A stretch of DNA of 64,000 nucleotides from Micractinium sp. NFX-FRZ (Eukaryota; Chlorophyta; Trebouxiophyceae; Chlorellales; Chlorellaceae). Below, in pieces: positions 528 through 58,800 of the stretch. The stretch covers positions 1 to 64,000 of the forward strand of contig JAPTJF010000098.1 in NCBI GenBank assembly GCA_029339195.1, given 5' to 3'. Positions within the stretch are counted from its first letter, which is position 1. Each line of letters begins with the position of its first letter. The position numbers were made by a program, and so were the translations under genes. The notes beneath the pieces were generated by a model, which was given only the letters and a program-made list of their open reading frames with translations, was not told where the DNA came from and ran no database searches.

Positions 528-3500
528 ATGCTGAAGAAGCTGCTGCCGCGCAAGTCGACCAGCCGCTGGCTGGGGGCGGGGGAGACGCAGCTGGAGCTTG
601 AGAAGCACTTTAAGGTCAAGCAGCAGCTGGGAAAGGGCTCCTATGCCACAGTGTGAGTAGGCGGGGAGGAGGGAAGCAGCCGTGGGGCGGCCCAGGCAGG
701 GGGCTTGAGTGGGGGGTGGGTGCAGACAGGGCTGACGCGCGGGCGGGGCGGGGCGGCGCGCGCCCAGCCTTTCAACAGAGTGCGCCCGCCCCCGCCAGAA
801 AGAAGCGCACGGCTTCTGTTCATGCAAGGTTGCCCACTCACCGCTCTGCCTTCGCCCTTTGCCTGCCTTTCACTGTTGGTCCCTGCAGCTATAAAGTGCG
901 GCGCCTGGAGGATGGGCAGCTGTATGCTCTGAAGGTGGGTGGGTTGGGAGGTGGGCGGGCACACTAGCAGGCCGGAACGAGTTGGCTCATCACTCATCAG
1001 CCGCCCCCCACTCATGTCGACCTTCATTGCTGGGCCCACCTCGCTGGCCTGCCCACCCGCCTTCCCACCCGCAATCCGCCCACTCCCCCACTCTGCCGCA
1101 ATCTGCCCTCATCCCCATTCTGTCCATGCCCCACTCTGCCCACTCCCCAACTCTTGCCTTTCCACCCTCGCATGCTTGCCCACCTCCAGGTGGCAGACAT
1201 CAAAGCGCTGGGTCCCCTGGAGCAAGCTGACGCTGTGAACGAAATCAGGCAAGCCCGGGGAGAGGGCTGGCTCACGTGCCTGCCATCTGTGCGCCCTCCC
1301 CGGCTGCACAGGAGCAGCAGCAGGTTGCAAGGGGTGGGGAGACCCTCGCCTGCGCAGCCCGCCGACTGGGACGGCTGCCGCCCCGCATCCCTCGGCCCCA
1401 TCCCCTCTGGTCCACCCCCGCCGACCCCCGGCCCGCCCACCGCTCACACTGCCGCCAGGCCGCCTGCAACCCACGCATGCCCCCTTCCCCGCCCCCTGCA
1501 GGCTGCTGGCCAGCCTGGACCACCCCAACCTCACCACCTTTTATGAAGCCTTCTGCGACCACGGCAAGTTGGGAGCTAGGGAGAGCCACAAGACGCGGCG
1601 GGGCAGCCTGCCAATGGTCCAGCTGGACAGCTCGCCAGATGGCGGCAACGTGCCAGCCGCCTTGTGCCGTTTTGGTTACGTTGTGCCCCACTTGCAGCAG
1701 CCCCTCGACGCGTGACCCCCCCAACTTCCGGCAGGCCCTGTCCCCTGAGCAGCCGCTCCCATCCCACCTCATCACACCACACCAATGCAGGCAGGCTGTG
1801 CATAGTGCAGGAGCTGGTGGGAGGAGGAGACCTGGGGACACTGATCAAGTGAGTGAGTGAGTGAGGAAGGGAGGGGGAGGGTGGGCGTTGAGGAGGGTGG
1901 GAGACGGGGAGAGTTGAGGCAAAGAGGCAGGGGAAGTGTGGCTGTGACTTGGCACGCTGGTCGAGTAACAGCACTTGCGCTGCGAGAGGAGGGGGGCGGC
2001 AGGGTGAGGGCAAGGGCAAGGCAGGACGCAAATAGAGGGAGCAGGAGGGCAGGCCGGCATGCGGAGGTGGGGGGCCAGGGCGGCAGGCTTGGCATCGGCC
2101 ACTCATCCCAGGCTTGAGTGCCACTTCGCCCCTCCTGTGGCACCCGCAGGCGCCGAGCTGCCAACACGATGCACTTCAGCGAGCCGCAGGTGACTGCTGG
2201 GCCTTCTTTAGCATCCAATCAATTAACTACATCAAGTCCATGGGGAGTCAGCAGCGGTTTAATGGGACTGAATTTAGCATCTACGCATTACAAGTCCGGT
2301 GATGTGACTCGCCAACCAGAGGGGCGTGCACTTTCAGCAGGCCCCGGCTGCCGCCAGCCAGCCTCCCTTCACAGCAAGCACCAGTGCCTCTCTGCCTCCC
2401 TGCCTGCTGCGCCTGCCTCCATCTTACTCTGGATGCGGCTGCGCGTCGAGCTTGTGCCGGCGGCCCATCCTCAGCTGTATGCTCCCCTCCCGCAAGCACC
2501 CCTCCCCTGCAGGTGTGGGCCACCCTGCTGCAGGCCGCCCTGGGCCTGCAGTACCTGCACCACAACCACATCATGCACAGGTGCGTGCATCACGTGTTCA
2601 GCGGGGAACAGGTGCTGCCGCCTTGTGAGGGGAAGCTTTGGTTGCTGTCGCCTGGGGGGGGCGCTACCCACCCCTGCGCGTGCGGCGTCCTGCTGCTGTG
2701 CCGCTTCCCCCTGCCGCTCATCCCCCCTGGCGTGCCTGCCTGCTGCACTCCTGCCTGTGCGTCGTGCTGGGCATGTTGAGTCGCCTGGCTCCTTCCCCCA
2801 CCCAAAAGGGACGTCTTGCCTGCCAGTCTGCTGGTCCAGAGCTGGGGGCTGCTGGAGCTGGCCAACCTGTGCTTGCTTGACACACACACACACCTGCTGC
2901 ACTCCTGCGTCTTCAGAGACTTACTAAACTTCCATGTTTTTGCTGCTTTGAAGTCGGGGCTGTTGAGGCTTGCCGACCTGCAGTGAACTCAACACACCCG
3001 CCCACTGCACTCCCTCTTGTCGGCAGGGACTTGAAGCCCGCCAACCTGCTGGTGGCCGAGTCAGGCCTGCTGAAGCTGGCCGACCTGGGCATCGCCGAGC
3101 TGCTGGACAGGGTGTTTGCAAAGGACATGGTGGGCTGGGCGCCCTTGTTGACAGGCCTGTGCTTCAGTACATTCTGCAGCCGGTACTGCTGGACAGCGTG
3201 TTTGCAAAGGCCATGGTGGGCTGGGCGGCCCGTTGTATGAGGTCCTTGCTTCAGTACAATCAGCAGCCACAGCTGCTGGACAGGGTGGTTTGTTGGTTGG
3301 TAATGAGCTGCTGCATGTCCCCTTCCGTCAACTGGTTGGGGCTCTTGTGACCTGCTGAGTATCGGCACCCCTCTCTCTTTAGTAAAGCGACCACTGAAGC
3401 GAGAGGGGTGCCGATACTCAGCAGGTCACAAGGGCCCAAACCAGCTGACGGAAGGGCGCATGCAGCAGCTGCTGTGTGCTCAACCATGGCGGGGCCCCTC

Positions 3501-5314: not shown

Positions 5315-5355
<41 letters not shown>

Positions 5356-8314: not shown

Positions 8315-11300
8315 ATGTCGGCAAGCCGCAGCTCCCCGCGGGGCCTGCTTCCTCTGATTGCGTTGCTAGTCATCACAGGCGAGTTTGCATCGCGAAAGAG
8401 TGCATGAGGGGCCACCCGGGGTGGGCATGCTTGCAGCAGGCAAGGGGCGCAACCCTCCGGGCAGATGATGACCAGTTGTAGGCGATGTGAGCACGGGCCT
8501 CCACTTGCCAGCTGCAGTGGCCTGAGGCTAGCGGTGGGGCTCGCTGCACAGCGCTTGTACATGGCAGAACTGCCAGTCTTGTACATGCAGCGGAACAGAG
8601 TCTTGTACATGCAGCCGAACTGCAGTCTTGTACATGCAAGGCACGACAAACAGATCTGGGGGTAGTACGGCGACCCTTCCAGCAGGCCGTGCCCATCACT
8701 TCACACGCTCTCACGTGTCCAACCGCTCCGCAGGTCTCTGCGTGATCGGAGCCGAGGCACAGCTCAGGTGGGGCAGGGGCGGGGCCGTGAGGCAGGTGCA
8801 TGACCACCGGTGGCGGGCAACCCCTGGCAGGCGCCCCGCCACAGTAGTCCCGCTTGGCGGGCTCGCTATCAGCCGGGCTACTCGCTGCTGCTCGTGCCTG
8901 GTGCCTGGAGGCGTTTGCTGGCGCCCAAGGCTGTCATCAGGCTTAAGCTTGCCTGCAGGCCCCGGTCGCTGTTGTGGCCGGAGAGAAGTTGCAGTGGGAA
9001 GATGGTGTGGCAGAACATGCCCTGGCCTCCCAGCCTCTTAGGCAGCCAAACAGCCTGCAGTGACCAAAGCAAGTATGCCCGGACCGCCTCCCACGCTCGG
9101 ACATCTTCATCCCCAAGCAACCTCCCGCCATCCCCCCTTCATGCCCCAGCAGATCGCCGCCCCCAAGGCCCAGGCCACGTCCACCGCCCCCCAAGCCGCT
9201 GTCACCCCCACCTCCTAAGAAGCCAAGCCCACCGCCCCCCAAGCCGCCTTCGCCCCCACCTCCCAAGAAACCCAGCCCACCGCCCCCAAAGTCGCCACCA
9301 CCCCCCAAACCCAGCCCCCCGCCCCCCAAGTCGCCTTCGCCCCCACCTCCCAAGAAGCCAAGCCCGCCGCCCCCTAAGTCACCGCCTCCCCCAAAACCCA
9401 GCCCACCGCCCCCCAGGCCGCCTTTACCCCCACCTCCTAAGAAACCCAGCCCACCGCCCCCTAAGTCACCGCCTCCCCCAAAGCCCAGCCCACCGCCCCC
9501 CAGGCCGCCTCCTCCACCTCCTCCCAAGAAGCCAAGCCCACCGCCCCCTAAGTCACCGCCTCCCCCAAAACCCAGCCCACCACCCCCCAGGCCGCCTCCT
9601 CCACCGCCGCCTAAGAAGCCCAGCCCACCGCCCCCTAAGTCACCACCACCCTCGCCGCCACCAAAACCCAGCCCTCCTAGCCCGCCAGGTGACAAAGACT
9701 GCTTGGGAACTCGTATCGGTGTAAAACATCAGTGTGTGCATGCTGGCAATGTTATGCATTACATGCAGAGAGTAGTAGTGGGGTAAGCGCCAGTGGAGGC
9801 CTCCTGCATGCCGAGGTCCGTCCAGGCACAAGCGGCCGCCCCAGCCCTGCATGCCCCTCTCGAGTGCTGCCTGTACATGCAGACTGCTGCAGTCGCCAAG
9901 CACAGCCTGACCTACCCGTGCCTTGGAACTTTCCTTAAATCCCCTGCTGCAGCGCGGCCACCTCCCCCTTCTCCCCGTCCACCTCCCCCCTCTCCTCGGC
10001 CGCCTCCCCCCTCTCCCCGGCCACCCCCGCCGTCCTCCCCTCCGCCAAGCCCGCCACCGCCACCCCCTCCGCCTTCGTGAGTCCCCTTCTGTGCTTGCAA
10101 GAATACTTTCAGACACCTACGGCTTGCTTGCTTTTCGGGGGTTGCAGTCTGTTTTCCGCAAGGAAGCTTGCAGCACAGACCCCACCTAAGGCAGTCAACA
10201 CCCCGCCAGACGGTCTCGCAAGCATGCCCTCTCAACCCCATGCCGCTCAGCTCCGAGTCGGTTGCTGCTGCCAATGCACCGTTTGCGGCCCGTTTGCGCC
10301 CAGCAGCAGTGGCTAACCACCGCGTATGCTCCTTGTGCACGTGCACTCAGGCTGGTTGAATCCTGGCCCGTGCTGCCAAGGCTTGCACCCCACCCCGCCC
10401 CGTCCCGCCTGCCCCCTCATGCTGCGCCCTGCCTGGCCGGTTCCGCCAGGCTTTGTCCCAGCCTTCAGCCAGCCGTGCAAACAACCCGGCCCTGCCCCAT
10501 GTGACCCAGCCCTGCTACCACTGTGCCCCGCCCCGCTTCTTACCCACCCATGTCTGCCACGTCCCCCACAGGTGGAGCACAGGTGGTGTGTTCACCACCA
10601 ACGGAGTTGAGTCCGTCACCGTGGGCGTCGCGCCCTCTGGCACTGGCGTGCTGTATGCTGCTGCCGCCGGCGGCAGTGAGAACGGCATCTGGAGCTTCGC
10701 CAATGGCGCCTGGACCAAGGCCCTCTCTCTGCCCCAGGGCACTGCACCCCCAGTGCAGCTGGCTCTGCATGCGGCCCAAAGCACCACGGCCGTGTGTGGC
10801 GCTTACGTGGGCAGCAACAGCGCCTTAGGCGTCACTTGCGCCGGCACCCCCGACACTGTGACCGCCCCTCCCGCCGAGTACGCCGCCCAAGCCAGCGACT
10901 TCCACATCCTGCTCACCAGCGCGGCCCAGCCCATTGTGGCGTTTGTTGACACCTCTGCCTCCAACAAGCTTGTGGTGCTGGGCCATGATGGCACCTCCTG
11001 GGAGCTCAGGGGGCCACGCTACGCCACAGCCGCCGCAGCGGCCTCCCCACGGGTGCGTGCAGCAGCAGCTGGCCCGGTGCCTTGCTCGGGTTGGTTGGTT
11101 GGGGTCCGGATGCGCCTTGGTGCCAGCTGGCTTCTTGCCCTGCTAGTGGGGCGTTTATGCCAGCTAGCTTCACAGCCGCCCCGCCCCCCGCCAGTTAGCA
11201 AGCCGGCCAGCTGCCAGGCTGGCTTTGCTTCCTGCAGCTGGCCGGCTGCACTAGTGCACTTAGTTGCAGATTACACACCTCTTTCTGCTTCCTCGCACGT

Positions 11301-20645: not shown

Positions 20646-20845
20646 GCTTACAGGGCAGGCACTTTTCTAGCGGCCCCGGCATTCTGACATGTAGCAAGCT
20701 CATGCCAACTCCGGCACCATGCCTTCAAGGCTCAGAGGGCTGGCAGCATGGTGGTGGGCGTATGTGTGAGGGTGCAGCCGTTTTGTCTACCTGGCGGGGC
20801 AGGGGGACTCCCACTTTGGAGGGCATCCCAGCTGTTTGAGCGCGC
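20646..20845 (+). repeat. Direct repeat flanking the small secreted gene, left copy
   Basis: About 200 bases align with 22925-23105, sharing GGCACCATGC, TGAGGGTGCAGCCG and GGCATCCCAGCT in the same order with moderate divergence. The two copies are about 2.3 kb apart, in the same orientation, and sit either side of the gene at 21302-22608. Confidence 0.7.
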
Positions 20846-29527: not shown

Positions 29528-29642
29528 CAGGCAAGCAGGCAGGCAGGCAGGCAGGCGGGTCAGCGGGCAGGCAGGCAGGCAGGCACGCAGGCGGGCAGGC
29601 GGGCAGGCGGGCAGGCGGGCAGGCGAGCAGGCAGGCAGGCGG
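29528..29642. repeat. (GGCA)n/(GGCG)n microsatellite
   Basis: About 115 bases of tandem GGCA and GGCG tetranucleotides. It produces artefactual Cys/Ala/Leu/Pro translations on the minus strand and Ala/Gly/Arg translations on the plus strand. Confidence 0.9.
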
Positions 29643-29788
29643 TTGAGTCCCAGTGCAAGGCACGAGGGGTCCATTTGCCGGCACACATGTCCTGCCCGCA
29701 TGTGCCCCGCTCCTCCCTGCCTCCCAGCCCCTCCCAGCCACACATGCTTGAGCGTGTGTGTTTGCAACAGCGGCTCCGCCTGCAAGCC

Positions 29789-30280
29789 TCATCCACTGCC
29801 TCTCGCCCCCGCCCCGCCCCGCCACCACCGCATTGCGCCCTCTGCTTTCTCTGTATCGCAAGTTTCGTTGCGGATAAAACATGTAACGCAAACCAATGCA
29901 AAGCTTATCCTGCTGGCCCCTCTGCCCTTCCTCACCAGAGGCGACTCCCAGTGCATGCCACGTGGGGTCCATCCAGTGGCACACATGTCCTCCGTGCACC
30001 CCTGCAGCATGCAGCGTGACGCGTCGCTCAGGCGGTACAGCGCCTGCGGGGTGGGGGAGCAGGGGAGGCAATACGGTGTGCTGGTCGGTCAGACCAGGCA
30101 GTGCAGCATGCAGCGTGACGCGTCGCTCAGGCAGTACATCGCCTGCGGGGGGAGACAGAGGGCAGGGGAGGCAGTGTCGTGTGCAGGTCGGTGGGGGCCC
30201 CAGCGCGACACGTCTCTCAGGCGGCGCCTGCGGGGGGAGAGGGGGAGGGGGAGCAGGGCGGCAGTACAGAGCGCAGGTCA
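29789..30280 (-). other. Possible 3'-terminal exon of the phosphatase gene with tandem decoy copies
   Basis: On the minus strand an acceptor at 30044-30046 opens GCG CTG TAC CGC CTG AGC..., reading ALYRLSDASRCMLQGCTED and continuing to DMCATGWTPRGMHWES. Phase 0 agrees with the preceding exon end at 30597. Two more copies of the acceptor plus exon start lie about 90-95 bp apart, near 30136 and 30220, and degenerate progressively. A diverged copy of the DMCA-xx-WTPR segment occurs near 29650-29700. The same decoy pattern precedes proven exons elsewhere, which supports this exon, but the true stop codon cannot be fixed from sequence. Confidence 0.4.
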
Positions 30281-30596
30281 CAGCGGCTGGAAATGAGCAG
30301 GCCAGCAGCATGCGCATGCTGCACGTGACAAGCTGAGCAACCTGGCATGCATGCCCGGCCGACGCGCTTGGGCCGCTGCCATGCCAGCCAGGCACCCGGC
30401 GCCCCAAACCACCAGCAGGGGAACCGGCATGGTGCCGCCAAAGCCCACAGGCCACATGTGACATGCTGCGCATCCCACCCTGGCGTGCATGCATGCCGGC
30501 CCGAGGCGGCCGGGCCGCCTCCATGCCAGCCAGCGCACCAGACAGCAACAGGGGTGGAAAGAAAGGGCACAAGGTAAGCCGGGCCGCGCGCCCCAC

Positions 30597-34842: not shown

Positions 34843-37800
34843 ATGGCCGGTCTCCTGACACCGGGGGCCGCGCGGTGGCCCGGCCTGCAACCAGCCCGGG
34901 CTCGGCCCAGTCGCGAGCACAGGCGGCTGTTTGCAAGGTCCGACGCGCGTGCGACCGCACCCTCTAGCAACGGCGCCACCCTGGTGCAAGGCGGTGCCGC
35001 CGCCGCCGCCCCTCCTCCCTGCGCACTGCCTGCCGGCGCGAATGGGACAGCCAAGTGGGCTCAGAAGAGCGCGCTGGACATCCTGCGCTCCGACGGCCAC
35101 TCCTGCAGCCGCGAGACCGTGCAACGTGGGTCCCCTGCTGCTCCTTGTTGTTCGGCAGGGCGGCCGCCTGGGGGCGCTCACCCAATGCTCACACCCAGCT
35201 CACCAAGACTCTCAGCTTGGATGCTGTGCTGTGCTGTGCGTGCCCTGCTACATGCTGTGGTGCTGCGCAGCTGCGCAGTCCTCCCCTCCTCCCGCCTCGC
35301 CCTTTCATGTACCCGCTCCCCCGCCTGCTGTTGCTGCAGCCTGCGGCAGCCTCAAATTCCAGCACCCCAGCTCCCAGCAGCAGCTGCTGGTGTGGAGGAC
35401 GCGCCCTAAATGGTGAGACAACAAGGCGAGGCGCCGCACCGCACGGGGCCCTCAAGCACCGCTGCCGCCGTCGCGCCGCCGCCGCGCCTCGCAGCGCGCC
35501 ACCAGCCCACCACCCGCCCACACCGATGCATGCACACCAGTGCAGTGCCGGCACTGGCCATCTAGCATGCTGCAGGCAGGGCGCCAGCACCTGCGGTGAC
35601 CTTGGAGATGCTCTGCAGGGCTCACCCACTCTCTCCCAGCGTGTGACGCTAATTTACACTCATTTACTCATTTGGACTCATTTACGCCCATTTACGCTCA
35701 TTTACTGCATCCGTCCTGGAGTTGAGCTGTGGAGGTTACGTTTCTCAAGTGGCGTCCCCTACCTCGGAGAGCAGCCCACTGACTGCTCATGCCCCATGTG
35801 CCCCCACCCACCCTCCCTGCCTCCCGTGCAGCGTCATGGTCGTGAAGAAGCTGGGGGATGAGCTGATGGAGGAGTTTGTTGAGGTGGTGCGCTACCTGGG
35901 GGAGGATATGGGCATGCGGGTGGTGGTGGAGCCGCGGGAGCAGGCGGCGCTGCAGCAGGTGCGGCGGGCGGGGCGGGCGGGGCGGGCGAGGCGGGGCTGT
36001 GTGCGGGTGACGGTGACGGGGCGGGCACCTGTGTGTTGCCTTGCGCTGCCCATTGCGGCCGGGAGAGGGGTGGAGGCTGTGCGCACCGCCGCGCTGCCGT
36101 GTACTCCAGCCTCCCAACCCCGGCCACTCCCGCCTCTGCTGCCGCGGCGCCTCGTGCACTTCCCCTCCCCCGCCGCGGCCCCATTCACTCTGCCCACCCC
36201 CACCCTTCTCTCCCCCTCCCTTGCAGCGGGAGGCTGCAGGCAGCCTGCCCTTCCTGGCAACTTTTGATGCCGAGGAGCTGCCTGAGCTGCACTCCTATGT
36301 AGATTTCGTGGTGTGCCTGGGAGGCGACGGCCTGCTGCTGGTGAGCCCATCCGTTTCTCTTGTTCAGCAGATGTGCGCACACAGCTGGCGTTGGGCACAG
36401 CTGCACGGTGTAATGGGGCAAGAAGGGGGCGGCGCAATGCTGGCGGCTAGTGCTTGGGTGTGAGAAATTGAGGATGACATGAGGCATGATTGCACGTGGG
36501 CTGTGCGGTGGGCCGGCGGCGGGGCACGGCCTGCTGCTGCTGGTGAGCACCCCTCGTGAAGTGGGTTGGACTGCACTGAGGTCGGCGCCGTGCGCCGTGC
36601 TGGGCATAGATCCCGCGGTTGCAGCTGCCTGCCGCACTCGCCCACCCGCCTGCTGCACTCACCCGCCCACCCTCTGCCCCCCCCCTCTGCCCGACCCCTG
36701 CAGCACGCGGCCAGCCTGTTTGGCTCCGCCATGCCACCCCTCATCTCCTTCAAGCTCGGCTCATTGGGGTTCCTCACGGCGCATGGGTGAGCGGGGCCGG
36801 GGACGGCAAGGCAGGCAGCGGGGGGAGGTTCTACAGGGTTGGGAGGGGCTGCCCACTCCATCTCATCCCGACCCACCCCGACCCCAAATCAGCCCAAACC
36901 AAACCAACCCTTGCCAAACTAACCCAAATGAAACCAAGCCACTCCGCCTGCCCTCTGCTCCCGGGTCCGTCACCCTTGCCCAACGCCCACCCGCACTGCC
37001 ACCTCCCTCCCTCCCTCGCCGGCCCCTGTGCAGCTACACAGCTATCGTGGTGCAGGGCCGCTCCAAGCTCAACCCCTGCCCCGCTCCCCTCCCCGTCTCT
37101 GGTTCCCCCTCACCTTGCAGCTACACCAACTTCCTGCAAAACCTTGGTGAACCTTTCTGCAGGGCACCAGCTCACCCCCCTGTCTCTCTCCCTTCCCCCT
37201 CCCCCACCCCACCCTCACCCCGCAGCTACAACAACTTCCGGCAAGACTTGCTGGACGTGGTGCAGGGCTGTTCCGAGCTTGACTCGTGCAGCGTGTGGGA
37301 CTCCCTGGACGGGTCCACCCGCCAGGGGGTGCGCATCACCCTGCGCATGCGCCTGCAGTGCGAGCTGTGGAGGTGAGGGGCGAACGTGCTCATTTCTGCC
37401 TTTGATGTGCTTATTTTGCCTTTAAGAAGGCAACATGTGCTTGCCTTCTTGTGTGACTGGCTGGTGGGGAGTAGGGTGGCAAGTGTGCCCCGCCTCCCTG
37501 TGCCCCTGTGCTGCACCCGACCACAGCCCTGCCCCGGCTCACCTCTCCAGGCACGGCGGCGGCCCCCTCCCAGAAGGCATGCCCACCAGGGTTTGAAACG
37601 ACGCGTTGCTCCCCCCGTGCTATTCCCCTGCCCCTACGCCTGATTACCTTGCCCAACACGCATGACTCTCCTGCCTGCTGCAGGGACGGCGCCCCCCTGC
37701 CAGGTGGCGCCCACGAGGTGCTGAACGAGGTCGTCCTCTCCCGTGGCTCCAACCCCTACCTCTCAAACATCGAGGTGGGCGTGTGCAATGTTTTGGGGTG

Positions 37801-40102
37801 GAAAAAGCTGCGTACGTGGGTGCCTTGAGGTTGGTACGAATGGGGTGCTTGCCCACGCCTACGAGGTTCGGGCAGCGGACTCTGTGGGTGGGTGCGGTGG
37901 TTTTGATACGAATGGGGTGTGCGCCCACCCCTACCTCTCAAACATCAAGGTGGGCGGGTGTAGTGCTTTGGGGGCGAGGCATTGTGTGTGGAGGGCTGTC
38001 GGCGGATGGCGTTGGCGGGGCGGGGGTGCGAACCAACATCTCCCACCTCTTGCACAGTGAGGTACGGGAGGCGGTGGGTGCGGGGTCTGGAGGTGTGGGG
38101 GCATGGTAGCTACTGGGTTACAAGCAGCTTAGACCTCGGCTGCCTCCTGCTCGCGGTCTCACCCTGCTGCCCACCCTGCCGCCCCACCCTTCTGCCCCAC
38201 CACCACCGCAGCTGCGCGTCTACAAGAGCAGCCAGCAGTAGCACAAGAGTGCAGAGCTGGCACTCCTCCTCTCCGGTCAACTCTGATTCGATCACTCCCC
38301 ACCTTGCCCCACCAATCCCTCCACCCTTGTATCGTCACCACCCCTTTCACCCTGCCCCCCTTGCCCCGCCCTCCTCCCTGCACGCAGGTCTACGAGAGCG
38401 GGCAGCTGATCACAAAGGTGCAGGCGGATGGGGTGATGCTGGCCACGCCCACCGGTTCGACAGCCTACAACGTGGCGGCAGGTGGGGCGGGCGGTGCAGG
38501 GGGCGCGGTGTGCGCGAGGAGTGGGTGGGTGTGTAGGCAGGTGTGGCAGGCGGCTGCCAAGGGGAGGGGCTGGGGTGGGGGTGCAGAGAGCGCGAACCCA
38601 TATGAAGCCGCCAGGAGGGACGGTCAATGCCAGGCAGCGCGGTCCATTCAGCCTGTGCGGCACATCCCCATGCATCCCCCACCCGCCCGAGCACGCACTG
38701 CTGCAGCTGCAGGAGGCTCCAGAGTGCACCCCTCCATTTTCCCTCCCTCTTTCCTGCATCCACCAAACTTCGCACACACACTCACACATGTTCCGCCTGC
38801 CTCCTGCCTGCCTCCCCACCGCAGGCGGCTCCATGGTGCACCCCTCAGTGCCCTCCCGTTCTTCCCTTCCTCCTCCCCCTGCACCCACCAAGCATCCCAC
38901 ACACACGTGTCTGGCCTGCCTCCCACCTGCCTCCCCACCGCAGGAGGCTCCATGGTGCACCTCCCGTCCTCCCTCCCTCTGTCCTGACCCTCCCCTGCAC
39001 CCACCAAGCATCCCACACACACGTGTCTGGCCTGCCTCCCGCCTGCCTCCCCACCCCAGGAGGCTCCATGGTGCACCCCTCGGTGCCTGCCATCCTCTTC
39101 ACCCCCATCTGCCCACACTCCCTCAACTTCCGGTGAGTCCCCCCGGCGGGGCAAATAGGGTGTAAACCTTAAAACCCTACCAGTGGGCGGAAAAGGCCAC
39201 GCCGGGCAGGGGCCACCCCGGCCGCCTGCCGCGGCAGCTGCTGCCCGGCGCAGACGCGCGCCGCGCGCCTCCCTGTGCCACCCTGCCCCAGTGTGACCTG
39301 TGGAACGATACTCGCCTGACCCACGCATGCAGCCAAATCAGAGCCCTGCTTCTCTCTCACTCAATCAATCCGTGTGTACCCGTGCAAGCGCCCCTGCATC
39401 ATCGACCATAACAATCATTTAATTAATAATCATATGCCCGCCTTTTGCTGCCGTGAGCAGGCCTGTCATCCTGCCAGACTATGCTGAGCTGGAGCTGCGC
39501 ATCGCGCACAGCGCGCGCTGCGGCGCCGTCATCTGCTTTGACGGCCGCGGCGGCCACGAAATGCTGCCCGGCGACTCGGTGCACGTGCGCATGAGCCCCA
39601 ACCCGGTGCCCACCATCAACAGCGCCGACGGGGTGAGGCTGGACAGGGGTGGGGGATGAGAGGGGAAGGGGGCTGGGAGGGGGCTATTGTAGCGGGCAGA
39701 GCTGCGCAGCGGTCGAGGTGGGGAGGGACCAGGGTGGGGGATGAGAGGGGGGGGCTGGCAGCAGAGGGCAGAGCTGTGCAGGGGTTGGGGCGAGGCAGGG
39801 CCAGGGTGGGAAGGTGTGCTGTTCAAAAAGGGCAGAGTTGTGCAGGGGTCGGAAAAGGTGCAGGGGGGGTCAATGAAGACCAGGCAAGTTTGGCGCCACA
39901 CAGTGCCTGAGCACTTCCAACCCTGTGCCGTGGTGCGCCCGTTTACACTCATGCCAAAGGACAGCAGCGTTTGACCTTGCTATTCGAAACTGCGACCCCG
40001 TGCCCGCAGACCACCGACTGGTTTGGCGCCATCCAGCGCTGCTTCCAGTGGAGCGAGCGCATCGAGCAGCGCCCCATGGCGGAGGCACCGCACCGCTTGT
40101 GA
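34843..40102 (+). CDS. NADK: NAD kinase (ATP-NAD kinase family), probably organelle-targeted
   Basis: Eleven exons join to 449 aa: 34843-35125, 35340-35412, 35832-35958, 36227-36340, 36704-36786, 37226-37372, 37684-37774, 38388-38481, 39060-39132, 39461-39632, 40010-40102. The enzyme phosphorylates NAD(H) to NADP(H) with ATP. Residues 1-95 are Ala/Arg/Ser-rich and look like a transit peptide, so a plastid location is likely. The catalytic core has LGGDGLLL (192-199), [12 protein letters not shown], the NAD-binding TPTGSTAYN (about 326-334) and [27 protein letters not shown], then [13 protein letters not shown]. All signature residues are intact. The size fits a compact NADK rather than plant NADK2 with its long regulatory N-terminus. 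Several introns carry tandem copies of neighbouring exon ends. It shares a 194-bp divergent promoter region with the phosphatase gene. Confidence 0.93.
36500..36560 (+). repeat. Donor-side copy of NADK exon 4
   Basis: The end of exon 4 with its donor (GACGGCCTGCTGCTGGTGAGC) recurs in intron 4 as GGGGCACGGCCTGCTGCTGCTGGTGAGC, near 36520-36550. Confidence 0.65.
37031..37260 (+). repeat. Triplicated acceptor of NADK exon 6
   Basis: Three acceptor-plus-exon-start copies, each GCAG|CTACA, occur with exon starts at 37034, 37121 and 37226. Only the last continues as the intact exon (CTACAACAACTTCCGG). The first keeps GTGGTGCAGGGC and the second keeps CAACTTCC, so both are partial copies rather than chance. 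Confidence 0.8.
37750..37975 (+). repeat. Repeated donor end of NADK exon 7
   Basis: CCCTACCTCTCAAACATCGAG|GTGGGCG at the exon 7 donor recurs almost perfectly at about 37928-37955 (ATCAAG|GTGGGCG). A partial copy near 37850 shares TACGAATGGGGTG and GCCCAC with the later one. Unit length is about 85 bp. Confidence 0.8.
38705..39090 (+). repeat. Four tandem copies of NADK exon 9 acceptor region
   Basis: Units with exon-like starts at 38713, 38825, 38944 and 39060 (intervals 112, 119 and 116 bp) each contain CAGG(A/C)GGCTCCA..GTGCACC. The inner copies also share ATCCCACACACACGTGTCTGGCCTGCCTCCC. Only the 39060 copy runs on into [12 protein letters not shown] and a good donor. The two middle copies still encode GGSMVH in the correct phase. 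Confidence 0.9.
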
Positions 40103-41515: not shown

Positions 41516-44500
41516 ATGACGCAGCAACAGCAAGCGCAAGAGCACGAGGGAGATGCGCAGCAATACGAGCAGCAGCAGCAGCAGCACCAGCAGCAGCAGC
41601 GAACCACAGACGAGCAGCAGCGGCAGAGCACCGCGCAACCCCCGGCTCCTGACCCTGCTGCTTTGCCGACGCCGCCACCGGGCGCGGTGGTGCACGGCAC
41701 GTGCGGCTGGTCAGACCAGTCGTTGGTGCGCTGTGGTCGCTTCTACCCGCCCAGCGTGCGCAGCGGGGCCAGCAGCGAGGAGAAGCTGAGGCACTACAGC
41801 CGCCACTTTGGGTGCGTGGAGGTCGATTCAAGCTGTTATGCCATCCCACGCCCGGGCGTCACCAATCGGTGAGCTGGCAGGGCTGCCATGGGCATCGGAA
41901 AGAGACAGGGTGGGCACTGTTCGGCAGGGCTGAGCAGCAGAGTATGGCCTGCCTGGTAAGAGCCATGCAGATGCCTGGCGGGCGGCTGTCTGCGCAAGGC
42001 GGCAGGCAGGCAGGCAGCCTGGCCGCGCCTGCCGCCCTGCTGCCTGGCAAGCAGGGAGCCACCACCTGCGCCTCGTCATCACAGGCTGCACGCTCGGTTG
42101 TCCATCCCGTGCCCGGAACGCTGCCGCACCTTAACCCTGCTGCAGGTGGGCGCAGGCTGTGGCCCCTGGCTTCCTGTTCCACTTGAAGGCCTTTGGCCCC
42201 TTCTGCAGCCTGTCCTGTCAGGTTAGTTGACAACCAAAGATGGACTTCAGGCGCAAACAACACCACTGGGGGGCGCCAGGGCGTCTCTACCGCAATCGGT
42301 GCTGGCCGATGCGGCGCCCTGGCCCCGCCAGCCACCTGCCCGTCCCTGCTGGCGGGGCGGGCCTCAACAATTGGCAGCAGCCACCTGTCTTGCCCTTGCC
42401 AGCTCTTCTGCTGACCTGCTCCTCCGGGAGCGCGCTGCTCCACACATGCCCCCCCCTGCTGCTGATTCACCTTCCCTTGCCCACCCGCTCCAACTACCCC
42501 GCCCCAACCCTCTTTCCCAGGCGTCCGCCCTGCCAGCCGAGGCCCGCGCCCTGCTGCCGCCGCAGCACCAGGTGCAGCCGGGCGCGCAGCTGCGGCTGAG
42601 CAGAGTGCCACCAGACGTCGAGGCCGCCTGCTGGCGCCTGTTCCACGCTGCTCTGGAGCCGCTGTACCGGGCCGGCAAGCTGGGGCTTGTGGTGTTCCAG
42701 TTCCACCTCTCCTTTACCCCCAGCCAGCCGCATTTGGAGGTAGGTGGAGTGGTTTGCCCTCTCAACATGCAAAGGAAAGTGGAGGCCCAGGGACCAGGCT
42801 AACATGGTGTGCAAGGGAGGCTGGGTGCGCAAGCCGGGCCTTGGTGGTGTCCCAGTTCCGTGTGTCCCTCACACCCAGCCTGCTCAGCCCCCAACCCTTG
42901 CCTCACTCCCCTCCCTGCCCCGCCCCGCCGTGCAGCACATCCTGCGCTGCCGGGCGCAGCTGGACCCCAGGTTTCGAATGGCGGCGGAGGTGCGGTGCCG
43001 CCGCTGGTTCACAGGTGTGTGGAGGTGGGCAGGCGGGCGGGCGCGGGTTGGGTTTGAGGTTGCTCAACAGGTGGGATTAACACCTCACAGGGCCTGCTGT
43101 GCGTGTGGCATCTGGTGCTTTTGTCGGGGGTGACGGCCTGCCCGTCTGCTGATTTTGTCACCGAGCCCACCCCAAGCAAGCTGGCCAGCTTGCGCCCCGC
43201 GCCGCCCACCACCTGCCCTCCACACACCACCTGCCCCACCCCTCACCACCTGCCCTCCCCACACCACCTGCCCTCCCCACACCACCTGCCCTCCACACAC
43301 CGGCCACCCACAACTGCCCTTCCCCACGCCGCCTGCCCTGCCTCCGGCAGACCCCGCCTGGCGCCGGCAGCTGAGCGAGTCGCTGCAGGGGCAGGGCATC
43401 ACCCTGGTGTCGGCAGATGAGCTGGAGCATGAGACGGCGCAGAGGGACCGAGAGCAGACGGGGCTGCCGCCAGGTGGGCGGGTGGGTTTTTATATTTCCG
43501 AGTACGGTACAGCAGAGGCCGGGCAGGCAGGGCTGGCGGCGAGCGTAGGGGCGGGGTGACAGTCAGGGGTGGGCAGCTTGCTGGGACGTTGCAGGCTGGC
43601 CTGCGGGGGGCGTGGGTGGGGAGTGGCACGGGTGGGTGTGCAACATTGCGGGGGGCAGGCGGTGCCCACTTGGCAAGCTGCCTGCCTGCGTGCCTGCGTG
43701 CATGGCCCTTTGCCCTGAAACTCGACCCCACCTCCCTGCAGGGTCCGTGCGCACGGTGCTGCCCATCTCTCTGGAGGTGACCACCCCTGAGTGCCACTAC
43801 GTGCGTGTGCACCGACGCCACGGCACCACCGACAGGCAAGAGCGGGGTGGGGCGAGTTGGCCACGGGGATCCCTTGCTGTGCAGCACACTGTGGTGCTGT
43901 GTGCGGGTGAGTGCAGGTTGGCGGGCTGAGCGGCTGCAGCAGCGGCAGCTGCCTGAACGCCCCGGTTTCTCCCTGGCAGCGGCGCATGAAGGCCTGACGT
44001 CATGGCGGTCACGTGATGCTGCCCTCCTCGCTTCACACTCTGTCCCTTGCGCCCCTGCCGCCCCATGTGCAGGCTGCTGCTTCCTGGTGAGATTGAGGCC
44101 TGGGCGGGCCGGCTGGCACGGCAGCTGGCGCCTCGCCTGCGGGGGCCCTGCTACTTTTTGTGGGGCACCGACTGGGAAGACACGCCCCTTCTCAATGCCA
44201 GGTAAGCGTGTGTACGCTGACGAGGAGGTGTTGCATACGACATGCAAGGGTGATGTGCTTGATAGCACTGCCCAGGTGGGGAGGTGGGACGCTGCGCGGA
44301 AATATAAGCAAGGATGCAAGGATGAGTTTGCCAGGTTGGAGAGCTTGCAGTTGCAGAGCCCTGATGTAGGGGAGGGCGCCTGCCCATGCCGCCCATGCCG
44401 CCCATGCTGCCCTTCCTTCCTGGCAGGAGCCTTGACCAAGCGCTGCCATGCGCGCTGCGCTTCGACTGGCGGTTGCACTGCCGCGCTGCGGGACCACAGC

Positions 44501-44811
44501 GCGGCAGCATCCACAGCTTGTTTGCCAAGCAGGCACAGCAGGCAGCACAGCAGGCAGCACAGCATGGGCAACAGCCAGCAGCAGCCAGGGCTAGCGTGGG
44601 AAGTGGCGGTACAGGCGAGGGAGAGCGGCAGCAGCAGCAGCAGGACGGCAGCTGCAGTTCAGCGTGTGCTGCAGGGCACGCCAGCCCGGCGGCAGCTGCC
44701 AGCGCGGGCAAGCGGGAGCGGGGTGGCGGCGCGGCAGGACCCACCGGGAAGCGGAGGAGCAGCGGCGGCAGCATTCTCCGCTTCCTGCAGCAGCAGCCTC
44801 CACCTACCTAG
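41516..44811 (+). CDS. DUF72 (YecE-like, TIM-barrel fold) protein
   Basis: Eight exons join to 485 aa: 41516-41868, 42146-42221, 42521-42739, 42936-43014, 43351-43473, 43742-43835, 44073-44201, 44427-44811. Residues 1-45 are Gln-rich (runs of Q and H). The DUF72 core starts at about residue 60 with VHGTCGWSD...FYPPSV, EEKLRHYSRHFGCVEVDSSCYAIP and FLFHLKAFG, and ends around YFLWGTDWEDTPLLNARSL. The biochemical role of DUF72 proteins is not established, so none is assigned. The C-terminal about 100 residues are Gln/Gly/Ser-rich and contain two similar hydrophobic stretches, RGSIHSLFAKQ and GGSILRFLQQQ, the second almost at the end. Intron 6 has a GC donor (GACAG|GCAAGA). A TGTAA at 45016-45020 lies about 200 nt after the stop. 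Confidence 0.88.
43205..43310 (+). repeat. Minisatellite CCACACCACCTGCCCTC in DUF72 intron 4
   Basis: Five to six imperfect units of about 17 bp based on CACACCACCTGCCCTCC precede the exon 5 acceptor. The array supplies most of the intron's pyrimidine tract. Confidence 0.8.
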
Positions 44812-45258: not shown

Positions 45259-46965
45259 ATGCAGGCGTTGGCAGCAACATGCAGTCGGACCCATGTGGCC
45301 AGTGCGGCAGCAGCAGCAGACCCGTCACGGCCGGCTCCCGCCGCCTGCTTGCGGCCCCGGCAGCGGCTTGCCGCGCGCCCTGCGCCGCGGCGGGCGCTGC
45401 GAGCGAGCGCGGTCCCCGCCGCCGCCAACGGCGCTGGCGCTGTGGCGCCGCCGCCCGAGCCGCAGCAGCCTGCCGCCGCCGCCGCGAAGCCAGCGGCGGC
45501 AGCAGCTACAGCTGTCTCTGCTTCTGACTCGGACGAGGACCCTGGCACCAGCATGACCGGCGTGCTGCTCATCAAGTGCCCAGACTCGAAGGGCGTGGTG
45601 GCCAGCGTCGCGCAGGTGCGCTGGTCGAGATGGGTGTGTGCTGGGCGGCGGGCGGGCGGGCAGCATGTGGGGTGGGGGCTGCTGGTGCATGACCATGCCA
45701 TTACCGCTCATGCTACTCGCACCGCCCCTGCAGTTGATCTTTGGTCTTGGCTGCATTCACAGGTACCCGTGCCAGTAAACTCAAACGCCTGTTATGTTCA
45801 TCCGCCCCTGCAGCTGCTCTTTGGCTTTGGCTGCAACATCATCCAGAGCGACCAGTTCAGCGACACGCAGGCAGACATGTTCTTTCAGGTGGGCTGTCAG
45901 GCATGCTTGATAGTATGTCAGGCGGGGCATTGGGCGTGCATCGTAGACAGGGCGGCTGCAAGGAGGGGCTGTGTCACCTACTGTGCCGGGCTGGGTGGGC
46001 TGGGTGGGGTCCAGCGGCACGCCGGCAGGGGCTGTTTGGTCCAGGTGGCGAGGTTGTGTGGACGAGGCGTGGTGGCTCGAGCCCCCCAGGGTGAAAGGGC
46101 AGCTGCGGTTTTCCCAGGTGGATAACACAGGACGCTCTGTCTACTTTACTCTCCCTTCTCCCTTCTCCTCTGCAGCATGCAGTCTGTGACTACTCAAGAC
46201 ATGATTGTTTGCCCCGGCGGCTAACATCAACACTCCCTCTTATTCCTTCTTCCTTCTCCCCTGCAGCGCGTGGTGTTTGACTATTCCGACATGATTGTGG
46301 GGCCCGGCAACACAGCGGTGCTGGAGCGCGGAATTGCTGAGGTGGCGCGCAAGTACAGCATGGAGTTCCGCGTCAGCTACTCCACCAAACAGAAGCGGGT
46401 GGCGCTTCTGGTCAGGTGCGCAGCGGCTGCCTCTTTGACGGTGTTTTGTGGCACGGGGCGCGGGTGTGCGTGGCGGGGGTTGTAGCCGAGCAGACGCCCC
46501 TGGGGGCAGCTTGGGCGGCACGCGCCCTTCCCGCACGCTGTGTTGGTTTTCTCCCGCATGACTGTCCCCTCTTCCTTTCCCTGGTTGCGTGGGTGCGTGT
46601 TGCGGGTGCGGGGGGCATGGCTGAGGTGTGGCGCAATCACTCACTGCCCTGCCTCACTGCCCTGGCCCTTGCAGCCCCTAGCGTCTGCTTGCCCACCCTG
46701 CTGCCCTCACACCCCCTCCCCTTCCCATCCCGTACCTCGTGGTTTTTTGGAAACCCTGACACCCTCCCCTTTTGTTTTCATGTCCATCTCCTGCAGCAAG
46801 CTGGACCACTGCCTGTACGACCTTCTCATCCGCATGGAGAGCGGGGAGCTCAACTGCACCATCCCGCTCATCATCTCCAACCACCCGGGTGGGTAGCTTT
46901 GCAAGGGGTGGAGTGGAGTGTGTGGCGCCATGGTGCCTCTGTCTGTGGAGCAGGGCTGTGCTGCC

Positions 46966-47009
<44 letters not shown>

Positions 47010-48928
47010 CAGACTGCTCTGGGAGTGCCAAACCAACACGCGTTCACAGACTGCGGCCCCAAAGCGGCATGGCCAGTCTATCCGGCCGTTGGTGCAATCG
47101 CAGCAAGTTCAAGGCACAGTTTGCATCACCCTGCCCTTGCACGCCCTGCAGACCTCGAGCTGGTGTACTGCCTCTTATGCATACGCCTAACCTTGCACAC
47201 TCTGCAGAGCTGGAGTTCGTGTACAGCCATGATTGCATGAGCCTGACCCCATACACTCTGCAGACCTGGAGCTGGTGGCCAAGCGCTTTGGCGTGCCCTT
47301 CCACCACCTGCCCATCGCGCCCAAGGACGCCGCCAGCAAGGCGGCCCAGGAGGCGGCCATCGAGGCGCTGCTGGAGCAGGAGGACATCGACTTGATTGTG
47401 CTGGCGCGCTACATGCAGGTGCGTGTGCCTCTGTTCTGACTTGTGTTGAGGGGATAGGTGCCTTTGATGTACGGTTGGTGAGGAGTTGGAAGGGTGAGGC
47501 GAGGCGCTGACGGGGCAGGAGGACATTGTTTGTGCCGGTGAGCTGCATGAGGTACGTGGGCTGCTGCTGAGGAGGCGGGCAGTGGTGGGGCTGTTTGGCT
47601 CGTCTGCCTGTTGATCCTCCGCCACGAGAGCCGTGACTGCTGGGGCCTGAACCTGTGTCACACCCAAACGACTGTCAACTGAACTGGCGTCCCGGTGTCG
47701 TTGGCCTGCGGATCCTCAGCCGCTACAACCCCAGCTTGGGACTTACGCATCATGCTTTCCTTGCCCTGTCCCTATATTGCTTGCAGATCTTCAGCCGCGA
47801 CTTCTGTGACCGCCACTGGCGGCACACCATCAAGTGAGGGAGGCCCCACCCAAATGGGCTCTGGGCGGGGAGTACAGCACAGCATACCCCTAGGGGCCCT
47901 CAGCCCTACCCTGCCCTCCAGCGCTGTCCCCAAGCTGGCCCTCAGCAACGTTGCTACCCTTCCAGCTTTGAACAGCACGATGCCCGACTGGCCCATCCAC
48001 ACCACCTCGTATTCGTTCCTGTGGCTCCTGTGCAGCATCCACCACTCCTTCCTGCCCGCGTTTGAGGGGGCGCGGCCGTACCACCGCGCGCACGAGCGCG
48101 GCGTGAAGGTCATCGGCGCTACCGCCCACTACGCCACCTCGGGTGAGTGCACTCGCATCATCCGGTTAGCTGAGCACTGCGTGGCAAGTCAGGGTGGGTG
48201 GCAGCGGGTTGGTGGCGCAGCCGGTGCTCGGGCATGGAGTACGTGTGTTTGTGGCGTGCAATTGGGTGCGTCTCCGGCCAGCTGTGTGCGTGTGTTGCGG
48301 TGGGATGTACCTGTGCACCAAGGCACATGCGGGAATGTTATTGCCAGCACGTCTGTGGGTGCAGTTGTGGGATCTAGCCTGTACGGCAAGCAGCAGGGTG
48401 TTGCTTGCTGCAGCAGGGCGACCGAGGCAGAGTGAGGGCACCATGCCTGGGCGGTGTGTAGCGGCTCCCTGCAACCCGCTTGTTCTTTTGTACTTTGCTG
48501 TGCAGACCTGGACTGCGGCCCCATCGTGGCCCAGGACGTGACGCACGTGACGCACCGCGACGCTGTGCCCGACATGGTCCGCAAGGTGCGCGGCTCTGCA
48601 GGCTCAAGGAGCCCTGCCAATGATTAACTGTATTGTGCTGTGCCGTGCTGCGCCCGGAAAGCGCTGTGCTGTGCTGTACCCGCGCGTGCTGCGCCCGACA
48701 TGGTTCAAGACGTGACGTGAGGACCACGCTGTGGCGTGCTGCGACGTGGCGAGCTGTTCTGTGTTGCGCTGCATCAGTGCGCCCGATTGGCCCAGTCACG
48801 GCAGGTCCACCCGACCCTTGCTGCTGCAGGGCCGTGATCTGGAGCGCACCGTGCTGGCCAAGGCGGTGCGCTGGCACCTGCAGGACCGCATCATCGTGCA
48901 CGACAACCGCACCGTGGTGTTCGAGTGA
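45259..48928 (+). CDS. PURU: Formyltetrahydrofolate deformylase (PurU), organelle-targeted
   Basis: Nine exons join to 386 aa: 45259-45615, 45814-45888, 46267-46415, 46797-46888, 47264-47418, 47787-47833, 48036-48142, 48506-48585, 48830-48928. The enzyme hydrolyses 10-formyl-THF to THF and formate; in plants it is mitochondrial and protects photorespiratory glycine metabolism. Residues 1-95 are Ala/Arg/Pro-rich and look like a targeting peptide. An ACT domain follows ([21 protein letters not shown]...FFQRVVFDY), then the formyltransferase-like hydrolase domain: [33 protein letters not shown] with N292 and H294, and [16 protein letters not shown] with D330. The Asn-His-Asp triad of the family is complete. 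The end [14 protein letters not shown] is typical, so the gene is full-length. Introns 1, 2, 4, 5 and 8 hold partial copies of adjacent exon ends. Confidence 0.94.
45725..46215 (+). repeat. Decoy copies ahead of PurU exons 2 and 3
   Basis: CGCCCCTGCAG|TTGATCTTTGGTCTTGGCTGC, with exon-like start at 45734, precedes the true exon 2 start at 45814 by 80 bp. In the next intron a copy starting at 46176 (GTGACTACTCAAGACATGATTG) precedes exon 3 at 46267 by 91 bp. Each copy spans the acceptor and about 35-45 nt of exon, then diverges. Confidence 0.8.
46968..47008. repeat. G41 homopolymer in PurU intron 4
   Basis: A run of 41 G on the transcribed-sense strand lies between exons 4 and 5. The length is probably unstable and may be misassembled. 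It could form G-quadruplex structures in DNA or pre-mRNA. Confidence 0.9.
47145..47285 (+). repeat. Triplicated acceptor of PurU exon 5 (56-bp period)
   Basis: Exon-like starts at 47152 and 47208 precede the real exon at 47264, exactly 56 bp apart each time. The copies read ACCTCGAGCTGGTG and AGCTGGAGTTCGTG against ACCTGGAGCTGGTG, and share the preceding CACNCTCTGCAG context. In the required phase all three begin D/E-LE(L/F)V. Confidence 0.88.
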
Positions 48929-55800: not shown

Positions 55801-58800
55801 GCTGGTGGCTGCAGCGGGCCGCCAGGGGAATGCTCTTTGTGCTGGGTGCACCGCTGCCACAGTCTTTGGCTGGGCATGTAAGCGTATACTCCTGCCCTGT
55901 CCCTGCTGCGCTGCCCCTACCCCCCTGCTGCCAGCAGTTGCTGAAGCTGCACGCTGACGTGGCGCTGGACGACTTTGCCATGCGCCTTGCTGGCGCCAGC
56001 AAGCCGTTTGTGGGTGCCGCCGCTGTGCAGCTCAGCGGCGCCGTGGCCGTTGCACGGCAGGCCGCCGCGCCGCCCCAGACAACGCAGGTGCGCTGGCACC
56101 CCTTGGCTGGCAAGAGTAGCAGCTGTGCCTTCCGGCTCGCTCCACATGCATGCCTCCCGCCGCCTGTCGTGTTCTGTTGCCTTCTTATCCTATGCAACGT
56201 GCCCCCAAATTGAGCTCTCCTTCTGCTGCTCAATTCTGCAGAGGCGGATGCCGGTGGGCGCCCACTGCATGGTGCCCATCCCTGTCACCGTCAAGGGCTG
56301 CAGGTGTGCTTTTCAGTGTGCCTTCAAGCAGCGCTGGCTTGTAGTGTCTTTTAGGCAAATGGCTGCATACAGCACGCCTGCCCGACTTCACATGACTGTT
56401 GATTGCCCAACCACCGCACCTGCCCTCTCAGACACTCACATAGTCAAACTGGCAACAAAACCCTGCTTCTCACACCCGCATTGCAGGCCCGTCTTCAAGT
56501 TCTTCACGGACCTGCAGCTGGATGCCGGCTCCCTGTCCGTGTGCCACTCCCAGGTAACGGTGACTCCGCTGTGGAGCATTTCGGGCAAGCACAGAGGGCA
56601 GGCATGGCCCAGCAGCAGCAGGGCCACGCCTGCCATGCCCCGAGCTCGCCCGCCGCAGCGCCCAACAGCCATGTTACGGCAGTCTGCTCAGCCGTCATGC
56701 CAAATCAAACCATTCATCCTGGGCTGCCACCCTGGCTGCAGGGGCTGGAGCCAGCGCTGGCGCTGGTGGGCCTGGCGGGCAAGCGGCTGAGCCCGGGTGA
56801 CCCAGACAAGACGGCGGCCCGGCCGCCCCCCATACCCTGGTGGGACGACCTGCGGTGAGCTCCCGGCAGGGCCTGGGGTGTGAGCAGTTAGGGTCCTCTG
56901 TTTGGCTGGTGGACGACCTGCAATGCATGGCTTGCGAGGGTTGGTGCTGAGGGCTGAGTGCCTGCTCGAGATGGCCGCCTGCCCACTCTTTTTAGGACGC
57001 CCTGCGGTGATTTGCCGACAGGGCTTGGGATCTTAGTGCCGTTAGGCTGGCTGTTTGTCCGCGGGGCGACCTGCGGTGATTGGCTTGCGAGGGTGTTGGT
57101 GTTCTGGGCTGAGGGCCGGCTCGAGATGGCCGCCCGCCCCCCGTTGTTGGATGACCGGCGGTGAGAAACGGCGCTGGCTGCTGCTGACTTCTGCTGGTTG
57201 ATGTACGGTGTGGGGGGGGGGGGGGGGCAACGCCGGCCATCCAGCCAGGAACCTCAACAGAGCACCACTCGGTGTTTTTCACAGCAAGTAAGCGTGGCTA
57301 CCATTCGGTGTAAGGACCGTCCTCTTACAGATCTTGAGTCTCATTCTTGTGCACGCAGGTACATGTGGCGTGGCCCGGTGGCGCTGTCTGTGCAGCAGTT
57401 CTGCCTGACCCTGGGGGGCACCGACCACCCCGACATCACCGCCACCAGCGAGCGCATGACGGTGGGGACATGGGCGGTCGAGCTAGGGTGTGGTCCGGGT
57501 GGGGGCAGGGCCTGCAAGACCGGCGCCTATGAACTGGGCTCGGCCAAACCCCAAACCGGAAGCTTCTCAAAGTATTTTCTGTGGGTCGTGTGTGCCCCTG
57601 CCAATGGCCCTCGTTCTGTACGTGCAGGTGGAGGCGTCAGACAGGCAGGGCTTCCTGCTGACCAACGCGTATGAACTGCGCATGGTCGACCCCTGACTGC
57701 AACCTGTGACTGCTTTCGTTGGTATGCTTTGTTTTGTTCTTTGCGTGCAGGTGGAGGCGTCGGACCTGCAGGGCCGCCTGCTGACTGGCGCCTACGAGCT
57801 GGAGCTGGCGGATCTGTGCGCCACGCTGCACCGCTCCGCGGGGGTGCACCAGCTGGGCGGCACGCTGCTGGCGCTGCCCTTTGTGCACGCGCCGAGTGCG
57901 AGCGTCAAGTGAGCATCCCCCGAGGGGGAGGGAAGGGGGCTGGGGTTGTCGGCCACCTCAGCATGGGCTGCTTGGTCTCCTTGGCAGCCTGATGTCCACT
58001 GCCAACTCCCAAATGTGCCGTGTGTGCAGCTTACAGCGTGCACTCACGCCCTTCGCGCTCCCGATCACACCTGGCCTTCCTCAGCTGGGGCACAGAGGGG
58101 CAAGCGTAAGCACGGGGGCCATGGGAAGGCGTGGGGGAGTCGAGCCGGCCCCTCACCCTGTTGCGACCCGCTGTGGCACCCCCCTTTGCTCTGCAGGCTG
58201 CACATCAACTGGAAGCTGCCGGGCGGGCGCAGCCCCAACGACCACCACCTGTTCCCGCGCACCCTGCCACCAGAGGGGGCGCTGCAGGAGCCGATTTACG
58301 TGAGGGCAATGGGGCTGCGCTGCGCCTTCCGAGGCTGCCGTGTGTGCTCTGCTCACCGCTGCCTTCAGCACGCTGTCTACCCGTTGCCCCACTCAAACCT
58401 TTGAGTTTTGTCCGCTCCTGCCACTTTGTTTGTTTGCCCCTATGTCACAGGCGGGGGTGGTGTACAAGGCAGAGAGCATGGACATCACGCTGTCAGCGGA
58501 GCTTGGACAGATGGGCTTCGGGGCGGCGGCGCCAGGGGCAGCGGTGGGGTACATCGGGGGGCACCAGGTGAGGGGCACGTCTGTGTGATTGTGATGTTGA
58601 AGCTTCCTGGATGCACAGCCGTTTTGCACGCCGTGCATGCACTGAGCTGCCCAGGTGGTAGCGGTGAGCGTGTACGCCCGCATGATGGTTGGCCTGCACG
58701 CTGGCTTGCCCTACAGCCTGGCCCTCGTCCGGCCCCAAACCAAGCGTGCCTGCTTACTGGCGGCCGTGCCCGTGTCGCTTGCTCTGTCCACTTCTCTCTT

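Follow-up and report, generated by a model that had tools for sequence, protein, structure and literature searches.

Short tandem duplications across splice junctions in the green alga Micractinium sp. NFX-FRZ: a pattern above chance, with no support for strong targeting of splice sites

We identified 13 clear splice junctions that are crossed by head-to-tail tandem duplications (offsets of 56-175 bp), and three weaker ones (37684, 3027, and 5009), in a 64,000-nucleotide stretch of the genome of Micractinium sp. NFX-FRZ (C98:1-64000, hereafter the window; genome of 66,065,352 bases in 838 contigs, about 65% GC). At these junctions, segments consisting of an exon edge and its flanking intron are copied into the adjoining intron, as seen from gene models and from two repeat scans, one ungapped and one gapped; the duplicated units cross the intron-exon boundary in both scans. 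An earlier note on this DNA had described such copies at more than a dozen junctions, and both the copying and its extent are borne out. The arrays are probably ordinary short tandem duplications whose positions are not strongly aimed at splice sites, which are filtered by splicing and coding selection, and which add to intron length.

Gene models were obtained with our own hidden-Markov gene finder, trained on this genome (20 ten-kb loci and six pieces of the window), which settled on GTGAG as donor and TGCAG as acceptor. All junction and intron counts refer to these models, which are predictions made without RNA. The sample consisted of 19 loci (190 kb), a non-random set chosen by contig number or from contigs with earlier pattern matches; its gene models contain 300 introns with a median length of 246 bp and exons with a median length of 116 bp. 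The twentieth training locus (L028, 10 kb) adjoins the window and forms the 'window set' together with it. Genes of the window include a NEK-type kinase, a gene of the histidine phosphatase family, NAD kinase (NADK), PurU, and a SABRE/Hobbit-type gene, the Hobbit family match of which lies below the Pfam cut-off. The closest named matches of the PurU protein were from Chlorella-group green algae, namely Micractinium tetrahymenae (72% over the query), Chlorella vulgaris, and M. conductrix.

Tandem duplication at splice junctions is a real pattern and exceeds chance, as confirmed by both scans. Ungapped self-comparison (offsets 20-500, complexity filters, clusters with a score of at least 18) of the 190 kb in the 19 sampled loci gave 47 repeat clusters, whereas four local dinucleotide shuffles yielded 1, 0, 1, and 1, and the gapped scan gave 41 repeats at scores of at least 46 versus 4 in one shuffle. 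At score 46, 31 of 313 sampled introns carried an array (20 at a junction, five internal, six mixed), some of them by chance: there were 4 in the shuffle of a narrower scan, and the 31 come from a wider, unshuffled one. Tandem duplications lying wholly inside introns are also present. Offsets in the sample were 47-518, and together with those at the 13 window junctions they make the period of 55-140 bp given in the earlier note too narrow. That note had also named five genes; the kinase, NADK, PurU, and the SABRE-type gene stand, junction crossing in the phosphatase gene is only putative, and the fifth gene is the one at 41516-44811. Assembly error is an unlikely source of the repeats, the copies being mostly about 70-93% identical in gapped alignment, unlike the product of a misassembly.

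Where copies are sufficiently young, near-whole units align head to tail in the gapped scan, for example at two places in the window (37068-37165 with 37171-37268, and 56843-56984 with 56995-57139) and at two loci elsewhere (L020, 2671-2787 with 2795-2912; L009, 3093-3248 with 3253-3422). Directly oriented copies are separated by 4-13 bases at L020, L009, and L014 and in the window at 3100, 37068, and 56843; in many other arrays the exon part alone can still be aligned. Across 46 array pairs at 39 junctions (32 acceptor and 14 donor pairs), identity is about 77% over the first 20 bases of the exon part and 42% (ungapped) in the intron flank, as expected from the comparison of one drifting copy with one conserved copy. 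The intron part of the unit beat every control pair in 17 of the 46, namely 13 acceptor pairs (p about 0.03) and four donor pairs (p = 0.07), and did not do so in the rest.

Which copy works was judged by alignment to solved structures of PurU (3w7b), NEK1 (4apc), and NAD kinase (9cr4), a working copy being one that aligns free of gaps with no residues missing; predicted extra exons, two of them decoys (3180-3215 and 37876-37949), were omitted from the queries. The outermost copy is the working copy at all eight junctions checked in this way (one in the kinase, three in NADK, four in PurU), and the functional exon accordingly stands last in acceptor arrays and first in donor arrays, in agreement with the earlier note. 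The kinase protein is continuous across the junction at 3129 without the decoy that the ab initio gene finder called as its false exon, and NAD kinase is likewise continuous across its donor junction without the second false exon. The working copy at 37226 fits the NAD kinase alignment, and exon 39060-39132, the last copy of the four-copy NADK array, is required by homologous kinases. Creation of a new intron was not observed at the eight homology-checked junctions, where the protein reads on without spare-copy sequence. Splicing presumably ignores the decoys.

Table 1. Repeat arrays and comparison features in the window (window positions).
Feature	Position	Strand	Offset or period (bp)	Copies and junction	Basis
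NEK-type kinase donor array	3100..3292	+	about 86	working first copy, donor after 3129	both scans
NEK-type kinase decoys	3186-3267; 3244-3292	+		3244-3292 is a third, partial copy	both scans
NADK acceptor array	36960..37268	+		decoys 36960-37079 (weak) and 37068-37165; working copy 37171-37268, acceptor 37226	
Weaker NADK acceptor repeat	37551..37763	+	about 128	around exon start 37684	gapped score 50
NADK donor array	37743..37973	+		working first copy 37743-37798, donor after 37774; decoy 37917-37973	
NADK acceptor array	38709..39132	+	about 117	four copies; working last copy is exon 39060-39132	copies counted by eye
Gene 41516-44811, donor-side repeat	42675..42883	+	154	donor after 42739	both scans
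PurU acceptor array	45722..45835	+	80	working last copy, acceptor 45814	scans and PurU alignment
PurU acceptor array	46154..46308	+	91	working last copy, acceptor 46267	scans and PurU alignment
PurU acceptor array	47121..47277	+	56	three copies; working last copy, acceptor 47264	ungapped scan and PurU alignment
PurU donor array	47361..47570	+	about 135-139	working first copy, donor after 47418	scans and PurU alignment
SABRE/Hobbit donor array	56843..57164	+	about 153	head to tail, donor after 56854	both scans
SABRE/Hobbit acceptor array	57613..57801	+	123	acceptor 57751	both scans
SABRE/Hobbit acceptor repeat	61675..61817	+	101	acceptor 61788	ungapped score 22 only
SABRE/Hobbit acceptor repeat	62348..62458	+	78	acceptor 62445, decoy AG lost	ungapped score 21 only
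Weaker junctions	3027 and 5009			weaker repeats	
Comparison case, duplication wholly inside a predicted intron	30003..30192	-	about 101		both scans

The earlier note had suggested a recurrent process that duplicates exon-intron boundaries. Recurrent duplication is supported, whereas its direction at the boundaries is not supported in a strong form. A forward simulation on the real introns (random tandem duplications, a preserved exon copy, indels, gapped detection, and a filter by which the spare copy ends in the intron) showed that 52-63% of detected units of 65-140 bp already cross a junction under neutrality. When a duplication crosses a junction, selection still acts on one copy of the exon part, whereas both copies of an intron-internal duplication drift; junction cases therefore stay visible longer. 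We then hid the exons so that both copies drift and applied a blind rule to 427 introns. Among 29 introns with an intron-intron tandem duplication, seven had one that reaches the intron end versus 9.5 expected (P(>=7) = 0.90), with 4/14 versus 4.6 in the sample, 2/10 versus 3.7 in the window set, and 1/5 versus 1.2 at a locus with a paralogous NADK copy (described below). The result was 6/22 versus 6.8-7.1 at threshold 48 under four sets of age and indel-rate parameters, and a first version of the masked test had given 4/13, 2/7, and 1/5 in the same three sets. A twofold odds bias towards junctions would yield seven or fewer of 29 with P about 0.005 (equal-probability approximation).

Several results weigh against positions that are wholly indifferent to splice sites. 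Under naive placement, the repeats overlap a junction in 17 of 26 sample introns versus 9.7 expected (P = 0.002) and in 16 of 23 introns of the window set versus 8.7 (P = 0.0007). The ungapped list is strongly skewed at offsets of 65-140, with 15 junction introns to 0 internal-only ones in the sample and a ratio of 10 to 1 for the window set, against roughly one half of junction cases predicted by a first simulation. Measured against the forward simulation, the exon-inclusive counts retain an excess in the sample (20/25 versus 15.8, P = 0.047) and when pooled (36/47 versus 28.5, about 1.26-fold, P about 0.016 by an equal-probability approximation); the remaining sets gave 9/14 versus 8.2 (window set, P = 0.44), 3/3 versus 1.7 (nine extra 3-kb loci), and 4/5 versus 2.8 (paralogue locus), and all these counts leave out 15 'mixed' introns (6, 5, 3, and 1 in the sample, window set, extra loci, and paralogue). 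The masked tests are small, and several arrays that fail the blind masked rule belong to junction arrays by exon comparison. When 25 introns of the first masked run were read by hand with exon evidence, 13 were junction arrays versus 7.9 expected from the true origins in the simulation (P about 0.02). This excess sits in arrays of at least three copies, which are outside the scope of the single-event simulation; the two-copy introns gave 3/14 versus 3.4, in a subset that sheds junction arrays preferentially. Of the 11 arrays with at least three copies that were set aside in the hand reading of the first masked run, 10 were junction arrays, a proportion that the visibility of exon copies may explain.

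A mutation process targeted at exon-intron boundaries, for example through breaks or R-loops at splice junctions in transcription, or arrays that expand more readily over junctions, could account for the skew of the ungapped list, for the pooled excess, and for the hand-read list. We nevertheless consider it unlikely, as the blind masked test has no excess where even a twofold bias should have been seen, as donor and acceptor sides are both hit, and as internal duplications occur too. The genome-wide comparison of repeats and splice sites against random placement that the earlier note had called for, run here on the sampled loci, the window set, and the paralogue locus, gives an excess when naive, a modest one when exon-inclusive, and none when blind and masked. 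The masked test fits positions independent of gene anatomy, with a small excess left by the exon-inclusive and hand-read counts. Strong splice-site targeting is not supported; a mild junction bias may exist, or arrays may expand more easily once they cover a junction. One tentative and rather doubtful extension is that junctions in this lineage are mildly favoured for short tandem duplication or array expansion, perhaps via breaks linked to transcription or splicing, and that stacked boundary copies lengthen introns inward from both ends, with decoy splice sites competing until they have decayed.

Under the preferred explanation by ordinary tandem duplication, short head-to-tail duplications with units of mostly about 50-300 bp would arise repeatedly, presumably by end-joining repair of staggered breaks. 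Duplications inside exons would survive mainly when their length is a multiple of three, those inside introns would be tolerated, and those across one intron end would be tolerated as well, the outermost copy being used in splicing, the protein remaining unchanged, and the spare copy becoming intron. Since the median intron is about 246 bp long and a typical unit about 100 bp, a large share of the survivors must cross an intron end. These junction cases would stay recognisable longest, the exon part of one copy being held by selection while the spare drifts. The offsets of ungapped exon-exon repeats were multiples of three in 8/8 cases (five of them in locus L025); those of gapped exon-exon repeats, which are means over gapped alignments, were not all multiples of three.

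The spare copies do carry decoy splice sites, as the earlier note had claimed, and the splice dinucleotide is identical in 30 of the 46 pairs. Together with the NADK array at 38709-39132, which has intact decoy acceptors and a period that is a multiple of three and is apparently common to the paralogue, this retention could be taken to mean that selection keeps the decoys as alternative splice sites or exon ends. Such a role is very improbable. Retention would be no higher than drift of one copy at about 15% per site leaves (about 0.72), and offsets show no frame preference (13/13/14 by remainder modulo three in junction pairs; 11/4/10 in intron-only pairs). The exon parts of working and spare copies differ at codon positions 1, 2, and 3 by 0.158, 0.148, and 0.219 (chi-square p = 0.004), and this change at all codon positions, as expected of a sequence not read as protein, shows that the spare copy is largely free of codon constraint. 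The higher difference at third positions fits synonymous change in the working copy, yet it also allows slight constraint on the spare one. Decoys with a coding role were disfavoured on this frame and codon-position evidence. It is extremely improbable that the arrays are decayed tandem exon duplications, precursors of mutually exclusive exons. A repeat family at L010 (5156-5690) includes a whole predicted exon of 57 nt and is possibly a tandem exon duplication, but the listed units otherwise comprise mostly one splice site and a partial exon, and typical offsets are shorter than exon plus intron (medians of 116 and 246 bp). Complete exon copies were accordingly not found, with the possible exception of L010, and the even spread of offsets over the three frames and the weak codon constraint point the same way.

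Introns with an array have a median length of 400 bp versus 234.5 bp without one (sample, 313 introns), a 1.7-fold difference. The route to intron growth suggested earlier is in so far supported, and the arrays probably made their introns longer, although longer introns also offer more room for arrays. A second NADK copy on contig C24 (locus L039, G000:C24:263001-270500), pieces of which are 73-91% identical to the window copy, has acceptor arrays of its own with periods near 87-137 at exons starting at 1618, 2134, 2927, 4684, and 5288 of the reversed locus; the arrays of the window copy are at 37226, 37774, and 39060. Both copies appear to have the array at 39060, several overlapping matches at different offsets linking the two loci there; the remaining ones, the pair 37226/2927 aside, turned up in just one of the two copies in these scans. 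Homologous NADK introns differ in length (e.g., 439 versus 279 and 268 versus 395). With paralogue arrays in other introns and differing intron lengths, the time elapsed since the NADK gene duplication seems long enough for arrays to be gained and lost. An introner or other dispersed element is not supported for the NADK stretch, the one stretch examined for this, where a DNA search, which skips simple repeats, returned the stretch itself, one paralogue, and one 67-bp match.

Short insertions reportedly take the form of tandem duplications (Messer and Arndt 2007, Vaughn and Bennetzen 2014). The arrays resemble the AGGT tandem-duplication model of intron gain, in which tandem duplication likewise provides the splice sites; unlike here, where the unit contains a pre-existing junction, that model has purely exonic AGGT segments and a new intron. 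Among the open-access papers listed in our searches, none was found to name a process of junction-anchored duplication, the nearest case being the RNA-dependent RNA polymerase (RdRp) gene of potato, in which a tandem duplication spanning an intron-exon boundary gave rise to a new intron (PMC4974935). The unit there also comprises the 3' side of an intron and the 5' side of the next exon, with splice signals copied along; there, however, a new intron arose with a newly recruited donor, whereas here the spare copy appears to be absorbed in the existing intron, many loci are affected, and donor sides are hit as well. The view that no named mechanism applies is therefore not upheld, as short tandem duplication belongs to the known classes of mutation and its boundary-crossing form has been published for potato. 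In mouse cells, small tandem duplications arise through CST and Pol alpha-primase fill-in of staggered breaks followed by end joining (PMC8355091). They are short and head to tail as well, and their size follows the break overhang, whereas the present arrays are known from sequence alone and their copies look too diverged for breakpoints to be read. Introners reportedly also alter intron content at genome scale (PMC9860276), but they copy into many genes and the arrays here are local copies of an intron's own exon edge. The observation is a good one with a largely ordinary explanation, and a mild junction preference is possible.

The window contains other repeats as well. The phosphatase gene (minus strand, 29462-34648) has repeats at 29645/29943, 30003/30102, and 30345/30487, all within a single long predicted intron (29498-30596). 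At 29527-29643, a repeat of the GCAG type (about 115 bp) has dozens of listed matches in the genome, some as overlapping copies. A predicted PurU intron contains a run of 41 G (46968-47008). Three neighbouring paralogous gene stretches (10505-12737, 16931-19920, and 26020-28356) are 73-81% identical, and long C-rich repeats near them could encode proline-rich protein. The 73-bp element at 63754-63826 recurs at other genomic sites (37 of the 39 listed matches of its query, about 79-95% identical) and has neither an ARAGORN tRNA nor an Rfam match; RNA genes were found nowhere in the window by ARAGORN or by Rfam at gathering thresholds.

Three consequences follow for the study of introns in this alga. 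An apparent anchoring of repeats on splice sites can largely result from short introns and a conserved exon copy, and an exon-masked test is a means of separating the two. Decoys left by the duplications mislead gene finders, as with the two that were called as exons here. An ordinary mutation class apparently supplies intron sequence at scale, with a recognisable array, some by chance, in 31 of the 313 sampled introns.

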